From Diadophis punctatus similis (Eukaryota > Chordata > Lepidosauria > Squamata > Dipsadidae), in NCBI GenBank assembly GCA_023053685.1, contig JALIGW010000032.1, positions 5,218,343 to 5,282,342 of the forward strand: a stretch of 64,000 nt of DNA, read 5' to 3'. Position 1 is the first letter of the stretch; every line of letters begins with the position of its first letter. Positions 18,100-25,730 of the stretch are shown here, piece after piece. The position numbers were made by a program, and so were the translations under genes. The notes under the pieces are model-generated. The model worked only from the letters and a program-made list of their open reading frames with translations. It searched no databases and was not told the origin of the DNA.

Positions 18100-18365
18100 G
18101 AAAATATTTGTGGCTCAGGGATGAAGTGTGGGGTCCTTGGTGCTCTCTGAGCTTGGTGGTTTTCATGACATTTCATGACTCAACTAGGTAACATCATCAG
18201 TGCTAAAAGGGAGGAGGGGTTGTGGAGAGGAGGAGGAAGAGGAGGAGGAGGAGGAGGAGGAGGAGGAAGAGAAGAAGGATTGTGGGGTCCTTGGGGCTCT
18301 CTGAGCTTGGTTGTTTCCTTGCAGACATTTCATGACCCAACTAGGTAATGTCATCCATGCTAGCA
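18100..18365 (-). repeat. hammerhead-like pair flanking a GGA tract (cassette A)
   Basis: Two family-2 hammerhead-like motifs on the minus strand, at 18357-18328 and 18200-18171, flank a GGA (minus strand TCC) tract at 18210-18285. Motif 18200-18171 keeps CTGATGA, TTACC for stem II and GAAA; its stem I partner after TGTC has changed. Motif 18357-18328 has lost the first core bases. Both are followed by the same approximately 40-nt phrase (CAAGCTCAGAGAGC, then CAAGGACC). Confidence 0.65.
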
Positions 18366-18384
18366 TTGGTGATGTTACTTAGTG

Positions 18385-18600
18385 GTGTCCCAAATATACA
18401 TTTTCAAGAGGTAAGTGGATTTTCTGGGTTTTTCTTTGAAGATGTTTCACTTCTCATCTTTCTTTCTTTCTCTTTCTTTCTCTTTCATGTCTCATCCTTC
18501 TTTAGCTTCTTGGATGAGAAGCAAAACATCTTCAAAGAAAAACCAGTAAGTCCAGTTGATTTTTGAAAAAGCACCTTTGGGACAACCATGAACATTTACC
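18385..18600. repeat. inverted pair of PLE terminal-repeat pieces
   Basis: A minus-strand family-1 segment (18385-18460) faces a plus-strand one (18500-18600) across a CTTT/TCTT spacer. The plus-strand core reads AGCTTCTTGGATGAGAAGC then AAAA and CATC. The initial CTGA and the G of GAAA are lost, so it should be inactive. Confidence 0.55.
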
Positions 18601-18609
18601 CAGTTGTGT

Positions 18610-19210
18610 ATTAGAAAACCACCAAACTCAAGAGCACCCAAGCACCTCATAGTCCTCTTCCTCCTCATCCTGTTTCTCCCTCCCTCCCTCCTCTTCTCCA
18701 AACCCCCTTTTGTCTAGCACTGATGATGTTACCTAGTTAGTTAATAAAATGTCTGCTAGAAAACCACAAAGCTCAGCGCACCAAGGACCTCCCCCTCCTC
18801 CTCCTCCTCCTCCTCCTCTTCCTCCTCCTCCTCCTCTTCTTTCTCTTCCTCTTCCTCTTTCTTTCTCTTCCTCTTCCTCTTCTTTCTCTTTCACTTCCTC
18901 CTCCTCCTCTTCCTCTTCCTCCTCCTCCTCTTCCTCCTCCTCCTCTTCTCCTTCTTCCTCTTCCTCCTCCTCTTCCTCCTCCTCCCCCTCCTCTTCCTCC
19001 TCCTCTTCTTTCTCTTTCTCTTTCTCTTTCTCTTTCTCTTTCTCTTTCTCTTTCTCTTTCTCTTTCTCTTTCTCTTTCTCTTCCTCCTCCTCCTCCTCCT
19101 CCTCCTCCTCCTCCTCCTCCTCCTCCTCCTCCTCCTCCTCCTCCTCCTCCTCCTCCTCCTCCTCCTTTCCTTCTAGCGCTGATGACATTACATAGTTGGG
19201 CAACATCAAA
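18610..19210 (+). repeat. hammerhead-like motifs around a long TCC/TTTCTC tract (cassette B)
   Basis: Family-2 cores start at 18720 (CTGATGATG..., GAAA changed to AAAA) and at 19179 (CTGATGA, 3' half decayed). They flank a 380-bp TCC-rich tract (18790-19170) with a TTTCTC block at 19008-19080. Upstream, 18612-18715 repeats the unit's downstream phrase and a further TCC stretch, so at least one more unit has lost its ribozyme. Poly-Glu/Ser frames here are artefacts. Confidence 0.65.
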
Positions 19211-23545: not shown

Positions 23546-24400
23546 GTCTTAAGGAGGTCCATCCGGTGGGACTGTCACGATGTGAATATTGCCAGTTGAG
23601 CATCTCTACTATTTCTAGGTTTACTGTATTTTCTAATCAAGCAGACATGTGACATGTTTTACTGCGCATGTGTGCATTCCAGGAGTCTCCTTCTTCCTTC
23701 TTCTTCTATGAGCCTCGCCCAAGGCAGATGTGATTTCTTAGATGAGACAATGTAGCTTAATAACATTTATATTCTTTTGTTACTTTTGTACTAAAATAAA
23801 TATTTTGTTAATTAGAATTGAATCTCGGTTTTATTTTCTAAGTAAGAATGACTTCAAGGAAGCAAGATCCTATATCACCTCTTTGATAGGAATAATTTCC
23901 TATCCGTCAGGGACCAAGAAGAAGGGCCTTCTCTGTGGTGGCTCCCTCCCTATTATTTGAAAGGCTGAATGTTCTCAGTTATGTCCACCTGATCCACAGA
24001 AGTGGGGAGGCTGGGCATGTCAAGAGTCTCCTCTCCGAAGGAGGTCCATCTAGTGGAACCAAGGAGAAGGGCCTTCTCTGTGGTGGCTCCCACCGTTTTG
24101 TGAAGGCCCATCATTTCCCAGTCATCTCTATCTGACTTACCAGAGCAGGGAGCCAGGGTATGCTATGGCTCCCCTCTCCTAAGGAGGCCCATCTGGTGGG
24201 ACCAAGGAGAAGGGCCTTCTCCGTGGTGGCTCCCTCCTTGTAATTTGAAGGACCATCATTTCCTAGTCCTCTCTACCTGACCCAACAGAGCATAGAGATA
24301 GGGGATGTTAAGGGTCCCCTCTCTTAAAGAGCTCTGTCAGGTGGGACCAAGAAGGAGGGCCTTCTTGTTGGTGACCTCTGCTGTCCAAGGAATTTGGATA
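23546..24400 (+). repeat. L2-derived tandem repeat, about 140-bp unit, interrupted by an LTR
   Basis: A unit around ACCAAGGAGAAGGGCCTTCT and GTGGTGGCTCCC occurs at about 23915, 24056, 24198 and 24343. Between these lie TACCTGA, CAGAGCAGGGAGG and AAGGAGGTCCATCTGGTGGG. The same words occur once in an L2-group ORF2 C-terminus (the ...FSVVAP... region; compare 27710-27780). So a segment of a LINE has been tandemly amplified. The LTR at 23573-23909 entered the first unit. Confidence 0.65.
23573..23909 (+). mobile_element. solo LTR, family B
   Basis: 337 bp, TGTCACGATGTG ... TATCCGTCA, flanked by a perfect GGGAC duplication (23568-23572 and 23910-23914). The AAATAAATATTTTGTTAATTAG block can supply a polyadenylation signal. 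Its sister at 43994-44320 shares both ends and ACATGTG/GCGCATGTGTGCATTCC phrases. TG...CA ends and 5-bp duplications fit an LTR retrotransposon; no internal genes remain. Confidence 0.8.
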
Positions 24401-24940
24401 TTTGCACCAAAGCCGCCTGACCTTGGGGTGCAGCAGAAAAGGAGAGCTTGGTTGTGGCTGAGCAATACCTGTGTAGCAGGTGGGTCTTCTCTACTGCAGA
24501 ACTTCTCTTGGATGAAGAAAGCTCAGGTGGAAGACACTCAATCAAACTCCTTTGTGATTCCAGTTGTGTAGCTCTTGCCTCTGGGTAGAGCTTGCCCTCA
24601 ACTTTCTTCTCATGCGCTTTCCATAATCCCTGCAGTTCCTCTAAAGGAAGAGTGCCCAGGTGAATGCTATTTTTGGCCTGTAATCACCCCAAAAGGGTTT
24701 TTTTTAAAGCTAAAGGAAAAGAAGGTGATAGGAAGGACAGCAGAAAGAATGGAGAGACACCCGCTTGGTTTCTGCACATTGTTGTCTGTAGTTTGAGTTT
24801 AAATGATGTCAGCTGCTCAGAGTCACCCCAGTAAGATGGGTGGTCATATAAATCGAACCACAGACAGATGAACAAGGCAGACAGACAGAGACATCATAGT
24901 TCTATTTAGGCACAGGCTAAAATACTCCTCCTCCTCCAAC
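24401..24940. other. unassigned DNA with an L2-like tail
   Basis: 24810-24880 resembles an L2-group 3' end (GCTCAGAGTCACCCC, GGTGGTCATATAAATC). The rest is unrecognised. Confidence 0.35.
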
Positions 24941-25460
24941 CCCACTCCTTTCTAGCACTGATGATGTTACCTAGTTGGGTAATAAAACATCTACAAGAAA
25001 ATAACCAGGCTCAGAGAGCACCAAGGACTCCACAGTCCTCCTCCTCCTCCTCCTCCTCCTCCTCCTCCTCCTCCTCCTCCTATATCTCCTCTTCTTCACC
25101 TTTCTCCTCCTCCTCCTCCTCCTTCTATATCTCCTCTTCTTCACCTTTCTCCTCCTCCTCTATTCCTCCTCCTCTTCCTTCTCCTCCTCCTCTATACTTC
25201 CTCCTCTTCCCCTTTCTCTCTTCCCCCTCCTCCTCTTCCTCCTCTTCTTCCTCCTCCTCCTCTATATCACCTCCTCCTCTTCCTCCTCCTTTTCTTCCTC
25301 CTCCTCTCTACCACCTCCTCCTCCTCTTCCTCTTCCTCCTCCTCCTCTCTACCTCCTCCTCCTCTACTTTCTAGCACTGATGACGTTTCCTAGTTGGGTA
25401 ATAAAACATCTACAAGGAAACAGAGCCAGAGACCAACAAGGACCACACAATTCAAGCCTG
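24935..25460 (+). repeat. hammerhead-like pair flanking a TCC tract (cassette C)
   Basis: Family-2 cores at 24958-24987 and 25377-25406, both with CTGATGA or CTGATGAC and a stem II closed by loop TAGTTG. In both, GAAA is changed to TAAA/AAAA, so catalysis should be lost. Between them is a 340-bp TCC-rich tract (25037-25370), itself containing a repeated TATATCTCCTCTTCTTCACC phrase. Each core is preceded by TTTCTAGCA and followed by CTACAAG and a CAGAG... phrase. Confidence 0.7.
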
Positions 25461-25639
25461 AGCTAAAAATAATCTCTTCTATTGGTGTCTGTCTGTCTGT
25501 CTATCTATCTATCTCTCTATCATCTAAATACTAGACCAACAATCAAGCAGTAAACAATACCAATCAAGAAATCACCAAGAACACTCCTATCGACATTACA
25601 GAGCGAGCTGCTAGTATAAAAACAGAGAGCAAACCCCGC

Positions 25640-25730
25640 TCCCTTCTAGCACAGATGATGTTCTCTAGTTGGGTAATGAAACATCTGCAAGAAAACAACC
25701 CAAGTTCAGAGAGCACCAAGGATCCACACA
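25640..25730 (+). ncRNA. hammerhead-like motif, family 2, near-complete
   Basis: Core 25652-25681: CAGATGA (one change from CTGATGA), stem II partly paired around loop TAGTTG, intact GAAA, then CATC (from CGTC by deamination) and TGC. Stem I is complete: TTCTAGCA upstream against TGC-A-AGAA downstream. The CAAGTTCAGAGAGCACCAAG phrase follows, but no TCC tract. It lies 240 bp beyond cassette C, as if a third unit. Confidence 0.5.

Follow-up and report, generated by a model that had tools for sequence, protein, structure and literature searches.

Introduction

Minimal type I hammerhead ribozymes have been reported in Penelope-like elements (PLEs) by Cervera and de la Pena (2014) and Lunse et al. 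(2017), as cited in PMC6155905, PMC7761336, and PMC11722881. In the passages available from these papers, the PLE motifs are described as minimal and without helix III (PMC6155905, PMC7761336) and as occurring in tandem and in dispersed, non-coding copies. Here, we analyze hammerhead-like motifs in a 64,000-nucleotide (nt) stretch of the genome of Diadophis punctatus similis (Squamata; GCA_023053685.1, contig JALIGW010000032.1, positions 5,218,343 to 5,282,342, forward strand), hereafter the window. They share these traits, fitting the minimal type I hammerhead form without helix III and occurring as tandem or partial-tandem copies. We consider it probable that the paired motifs are decayed tandem end pieces of a Penelope-type element, often fronted by a TCC tract, and not a new kind of ribozyme-bearing element.

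The closest described system is PAc (Poseidon_Ac) of Anolis carolinensis, for which the methods sequence reads CUGAGG-AUG...GAAACGUC and is also given as CUCUGAGGAUGCC...GGGCGAAACGUCAGG (PMC11167929). The PAc ribozyme is reported to cleave when the PLE protein is present and not when it is absent, and PAc is reported to have two internal reverse transcription start sites and an optional tail of 30-40 bp. Its insertion in vitro is independent of ribozyme cleavage, and no RNA-seq ends were found at the cut site (PMC11167929). PAc and the window copies share the core (CUGANGA..GAAACGUC), the lack of a helix III loop, and an ATG at core position A9 (PMC11167929); by our own reading, PAc and the first of two motif families described below also have in common a single additional U that separates A9 from stem II. 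Both occur as tandem pseudo-long terminal repeats (pLTRs) with an optional tail of 30-40 nt, and the cut site follows the start codon by 26 nt in PAc (PMC11167929) and by 25 nt here (our count). A TATA-like run lies about 41-45 nt upstream in PAc, as counted on the published sequence. An initial sequence-only reading of the window had likened the motifs to PLE terminal repeats, and the match to PAc anatomy supports this. The two differ in that no similarity is visible by eye outside the core, no PLE open reading frame (ORF) is present among those scanned here, and TCC replaces most of the pLTR.

Two other systems invite comparison, each through the available passages of one paper. Metazoan retrozymes are non-autonomous, tandem elements of ~170-400 nt with type I hammerheads, and the axolotl examples of 331 and 353 nt (PMC7229834) are close in length to units of 339 and 353 bp in our second family. 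Unlike retrozymes, the window motifs lack helix III, a TATA box precedes most second-family and two family-1 ribozymes, and the copies are known from DNA alone. CR1-L3 and Rex long interspersed nuclear elements (LINEs) in squamates also carry a simple repeat at the end of a retroelement; there, however, 4-5-mers stand at the LINE 3' end (PMC6050309), whereas here a trinucleotide stands on the 5' side of the PLE piece.

Results

Motif Copies and Families

The window has a G+C content of 44% and abundant microsatellites. A family-1 profile trained on seven copies, which match by construction, recovered 10 strong copies (a-j; E ≤ 5.6e-14) and one decayed copy (k; E = 4e-5), with h, i, j, and k lying outside the training set (Table 1). 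These copies sit where the sequence-only reading had located its motifs. The motif at 25652, which it had called single, is the third member of an array at 24925-25730. A skeleton pattern written after the copies had been seen, CTGANGA-N14..24-GAAA-N1..2-TC, occurs 10 times in the window (four family-1 and six second-family copies) against a mean of 0.18 and a maximum of 2 in 100 mononucleotide shuffles. Pattern scans of viral contig and genome contig collections with the family-1 core and second-family patterns gave no match.

The family-1 profile also weakly detected a second motif, GAGCTGAAGA-AGCTTCT-TGGATG-AGAAGC-GAAACGTC-TTC, which had escaped the initial reading. A profile built from six copies of it yielded 12 second-family matches at E < 0.001, six of them the training copies, and also matched family-1 copy d (E = 0.00099). 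Stretches of this family lie at 31022-31612, 38458-38846, 2124-2173, 48286-48335, 36763-36812, 44992-45040, and 18409-18591. Because cross-matches between the two profiles are weak (lowest E about 0.001, the rest ranging to above 1), we treat them as separate families with a common core: the second-family consensus has the same 12 core positions, and its stem II differs with compensation. The second family is the better preserved, with intact cores in all six aligned copies; the six unaligned matches are truncated or damaged. Its 353-bp and 339-bp tandem units are 88% identical over 350 columns, and a third neighbor lies at 31069, 192 bp beyond the tandem pair 31612/31260.

Two further observations concern these families. 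An isolated match to the interior of the 353-bp unit (90%, 113 bp) occurs at 50133-50245, with no ribozyme match. Same-family neighbors also occur head to head in inverted orientation (18358-18410/18365, 18409-18458/18500-18565, and 44992-45040/45046-45094; some of these matches are weak), and insertion of the element may generate inverted partial copies of this kind as a side effect.

Table 1. Positions of hammerhead motifs and associated features in the window (A1, ungapped alignment described in the text; TRF, Tandem Repeats Finder).
Feature	Position	Strand	Remarks
Family-1 hammerhead a	24950..24999	+	G12 mutated to A; ORF-like tail to about 25034
Family-1 hammerhead b	25369..25418	+	G12 mutated (G12A); tail to about 25484-25498
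Family-1 hammerhead e	25644..25693	+	U4 mutated (U4A); tail end about 25730
Family-1 hammerhead c	44491..44540	+	C3 mutated (C3U)
Family-1 hammerhead d	44626..44675	+	Core 12/12, stem II 6/6, stem I weakened; tail end about 44706
Family-1 hammerhead f	18316..18365	-	C3U and U4G
Family-1 hammerhead g	18159..18208	-	Core 12/12, stem II 4/6, inner stem I 0/3; tail to about 18092
Family-1 hammerhead i	18712..18761	+	G12 mutated (G12A)
Family-1 copy k, decayed	19171..19212	+	Profile match
Family-1 hammerhead h	843..892	-	Core 12/12, stem II 4/6; TATA-bearing pLTR segment upstream, to about 960
Family-1 hammerhead j	60252..60301	+	Core 12/12, stem II 5/6; preceded by TCC tract
Second-family hammerhead	31563..31612	-	Core 12/12, stem II 6/6; first of intact-core tandem pair
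Second-family hammerhead	31211..31260	-	Core 12/12, stem II 6/6; second of pair; unit 31261-31613, 353 bp
Second-family hammerhead	38458..38507	-	Core 12/12; follows 339-bp unit 38508-38846
Second-family hammerhead	2124..2173	-	Profile match and alignment A1
Second-family hammerhead	36763..36812	+	Profile match and alignment A1
Second-family hammerhead	48286..48335	-	Profile match and alignment A1
pLTR segment with TATA box (TATAAA 25615-25620)	25575..25643	+	Upstream of e; homologous to segment upstream of h
Left target-site duplication CACAGGCTAAA	24911..24921	+	Exact 11-bp match with 25727-25737
Right target-site duplication CACAGGCTAAA	25727..25737	+	Exact 11-bp match with 24911-24921
TCC tract between a and b	25036..25364	+	TRF
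TCC tract between c and d	44584..44605	+	Tract scan
GGA/TCC tract between f and g	18227..18279	-	Repeat scan
TCC/TTCC tract between i and k	18788..19166	+	Repeat scan
TCC tract preceding j	60189-60233	+	Repeat scan

Hammerhead Core and Stems

Ten of the 11 family-1 copies and six of the 12 second-family matches were placed in an ungapped alignment of 16 rows (A1), from which gapped, truncated, or decayed rows were left out, which inflates conservation. Under the standard hammerhead numbering, its register is C3 U4 G5 A6 N7 G8 A9, then stem II (six pairs, 6-nt loop), G12 A13 A14 A15.1, U16.1, and C17. All 12 catalytic columns are identical in the consensuses of the two families, as compared to 18 of the 38 remaining columns (Fisher p = 7e-4), and when three decayed rows are restored (19 rows) core conservation is 0.930 against 0.704 elsewhere (p = 1e-4). 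Core columns are not clearly better conserved within family 1 (p = 0.07 for 10 copies, 0.14 for 11) or within family 2 (p = 0.05 for six copies, 0.09 for eight); the argument from conservation is based on comparing the families.

Stem II has been rewritten on both sides at three of its six pairs (18-33, 20-31, and 22-29), with 88.5% of cells paired, and stem I pairs 3-48, 4-47, and 7-44 have likewise changed on both sides; in outer stem I, the six second-family rows form only one or two of four pairs. Across the whole structure, 80.3% of cells are paired, versus 31-52% for slid partners, and none of 500 shuffles of the 3' letters reached the observed number of paired cells, the number of cells changed on both sides, or the covariation score. 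Nearly all of this covariation is between the families and therefore counts as few events. Helix III consists of A-C-G-U with no loop, so that a lone motif cannot close it. Judged by its sequence, the family-1 motif is a predicted minimal type I hammerhead, with a 12-nt core and stems I and II but no helix III, and to that extent the initial identification of type I hammerhead-like motifs stands. The proposal that CATC and TGTC descend from an ancestral CGTC is likewise upheld: in family 1, the dinucleotide at the CG position is TG in six of 10 copies, CA in four, and CG in none.

Besides the 16 rows of A1, which necessarily match, a covariance model built on this alignment found five further copies at E ≤ 0.012, each already a profile match, and nothing else in the window below E = 0.1. 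The Rfam comparison suggested at the outset came out negative: hammerhead families gave no match at gathering thresholds, and no hammerhead was among 35 matches at E ≤ 10, all of which fell under their own gathering scores. This result would suit the alternative that the hammerhead likeness is an inherited PLE signature, kept as an ORF start or a protein-binding site, and that the ribozyme never acted in this lineage, as would the cleavage-independent insertion of PAc in vitro and the lack of RNA-seq ends at its cut site (PMC11167929). A purely coding or binding role does not, however, predict a stem II rewritten with compensation around an unchanged core consensus, and we regard this alternative as unlikely.

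Fronts, Tails, and 3' Ends

Aligned together with their motifs, the segments upstream of e and h are 77.6% identical over 152 columns (E = 4e-29), and each has a TATA box, 37 nt (e) and 34 nt (h) before C3. Among aligned second-family copies, TATAAA lies 35 nt before C3 in four of six; it is decayed at 31612 and was not seen at 36763. Both families together, a TATA box lies 34-37 nt before the ribozyme in six of eight copies examined. Given the usual spacing between a TATA box and the start of transcription, transcription would begin at about stem I, and the ribozyme would be transcribed first.

Downstream, the ATG at A9 is kept in six of 10 family-1 copies, and its frame is open across 28 codons in six of 10, whereas each of the other two frames is stopped in all 10. 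The shared phrase after the ribozyme is probably the start of an ORF, although the open frame is weak evidence alone. Measured from the ATG, the 3' ends of family-1 copies fall into two zones, at +59..73 in seven copies (a, c, d, e, f, i, and j) and at +95..119 in three (b, g, and h). Copy numbers are small. For a, c, f, and i, the end was placed at the start of TCC with the help of alignments to TCC-free copies, other alignments having continued into the tract; for b and h, a common simple repeat may have lengthened the apparent tail. The two zones match the expectation for PLEs of an internal reverse transcription start with ends 30-40 nt apart.

These observations suggest a unit made up of a 5' region, a minimal hammerhead with the start codon at A9, and ~60-120 nt of ORF as its 3' tail. 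The fuller form is seen ahead of the ribozymes at 25644 and 892, where the 5' region has a TATA box 34-37 nt before the ribozyme; a shortened, promoterless form would have a TCC tract upstream of a short leader. Reverse transcription would start inside the RNA, as in other PLEs, so that each copy terminates in one or the other internal 3' zone. Units would stand in partial tandems, the "pair" flanking TCC being two units head to tail, and the source RNA may once have cut itself, probably as a dimer or with the help of protein.

TCC Tracts and Paired Copies

Nine pure TCC tracts of at least five units occur in the 64 kb. Six of them lie within 60 bp of a family-1 copy, all six on the same strand as that copy, against an expectation of 0.34 and with no random placement among 20,000 doing as well; the three away from family-1 copies are the shortest (18-19 nt). 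The most plausible reading of TCC is therefore as the front of a single subfamily. Upstream of a, b, d, g, i, j, and k there is TCC or a related pyrimidine repeat, and neither a TCC nor a TATA-type front is found at c and f.

The order motif, shared phrase of ~70 nt, TCC tract, and motif recurs in four head-to-tail pairs: a-b, c-d, f-g (minus strand), and i-k. The sequence-only reading had described this order at the first three loci and at a fourth with a decayed second motif (here k), and the direct pairing is confirmed. Its interpretation as a self-contained element with a TCC insert is not supported: what follows each ribozyme resembles the tail on the ATG side of a PLE, and the solo copy at 60252, too, has TCC on the 5' side of its ribozyme. 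TCC therefore reads as the front of a unit that may be tandem, and motif-TCC-motif is probably a head-to-tail tandem of units. Neighboring family-1 copies are spaced 135, 157, 275, 419, and 459 nt apart. In the three pairs tested, pair-mates are not more alike than random copies (p = 0.30), which leaves the candidate explanation of pair-mates as sister copies unsupported and weighs against simple amplification of dimers.

The similarity of pair-mates being no closer than random would also be compatible with independent insertions, in which a PLE preferred TCC microsatellites and each pair arose by repeated insertion into a single tract; a and i are indeed flanked on either side by TCC or a similar repeat. 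Such insertions would account poorly for the shared strand of all six associated tracts and for the recurring leader AACCCC..CTCC that separates TCC from the ribozyme (seen in a, d, and g, looser in i and j, absent in b and k). Moreover, the array a-b-e is enclosed by a single outer 11-bp duplication (Table 1), and it was therefore probably inserted in one event, landing as one piece. We consider independent insertions very unlikely.

A retrozyme-like element, in which RNA cut at both ribozymes flanking a TCC insert was circularized and reverse transcribed by the enzyme of another element, could also have moved the array as one unit. Direct ribozyme pairs 135-459 nt apart also recall the non-autonomous tandem retrozymes of metazoans (PMC7229834, in the passages available). 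However, four of the five spacings fall outside 170-400 nt, helix III is absent, as in PLEs, and pair-mates are no more alike than random copies. Further, family-1 cores are intact in only d, g, h, and j (four of 10), and none of the five neighboring pairs (a-b, c-d, f-g, i-k, and b-e) has two intact cores; by the core rule, no family-1 unit could now be released by double cleavage. We consider a retrozyme-like origin unlikely.

Several results weigh against assignment to a ribozyme-bearing PLE. No convincing outer duplication was found at the placements tried for c-d, h, j, f-g, and i-k. The number of pairs changed on both sides was reached in 231 of 500 shuffles, and that of further pair types in all 500; a U.C mismatch in stem II is common to five of 10 family-1 copies (c, f, g, h, and j). 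The folding check that had been proposed gave no minimum-energy structure with an open hammerhead core; in the family-1 consensus on its own, both stems form, but core bases also pair with CGUC. The nested folding program cannot form a double hammerhead, which is a pseudoknot for that program. A search with the N-terminal ORF-like peptide found no homolog, and the ORF-like frame relative to GAAACG is 20 nt here versus 21 nt in PAc (our count). Finally, no PLE reverse transcriptase or GIY-YIG ORF was present among six ORFs scanned with Pfam, although none is expected if the copies are end fragments; one ORF gave RVT_1 and zf-RVT below cut-offs, one gave sub-threshold matches including an L1 domain, and four gave nothing.

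Other Features of the Window

The ORF with RVT_1 and zf-RVT below Pfam cut-offs lies on the minus strand at 52314-54005 and includes a pure (ATT)n run at 53811-53950. The end of an ORF at 9196-9981, for which Pfam gave nothing, has what we take to be a resemblance to a CR1-type LINE and is followed by TTCTA-type simple repeats, perhaps reflecting LINE-associated microsatellite growth. Near-perfect palindromes at 27057-27140 and 59518-59609 match Rfam mir-5408 on both strands below threshold and look like palindromic miniature transposons. A 115-bp tandem repeat (2.4 copies), with a unit partly self-complementary by eye, lies at 55480-55757.

Discussion

PLEs are already known to contain minimal hammerheads, also in tandem copies, and a derivative fronted by TCC would be a new variant at most; to judge from the passages of published work, it differs from the minimal PLE hammerheads described. 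Searches of the open-licence literature found no paper with the motif strings and none combining Penelope, hammerhead, and "TATA box"; a search combining hammerhead ribozyme, microsatellite, and retrotransposon returned no title on such a derivative.

A bolder proposal, which we rate as improbable at present, is that TCC, a short leader, a hammerhead, and a tail of ~70 nt form a promoterless PLE-derived unit that spread as tandem arrays and seeded TCC microsatellites genome-wide, and that TATA-driven second-family units of ~350 nt with intact cores may still yield cut, possibly circular RNA. In the second-family pair 31612/31260, both cores and stem II are intact, and both motifs are predicted hammerheads. 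If ribozyme-released unit RNA exists anywhere in the window, this pair would be the place to test for it. The placement of the TATA box, the intact pair at 31211-31612, and the TCC derivatives offer material on the role of the ribozyme in tandem PLE RNA. If common, the TCC form would represent a route by which PLEs seed trinucleotide microsatellites.

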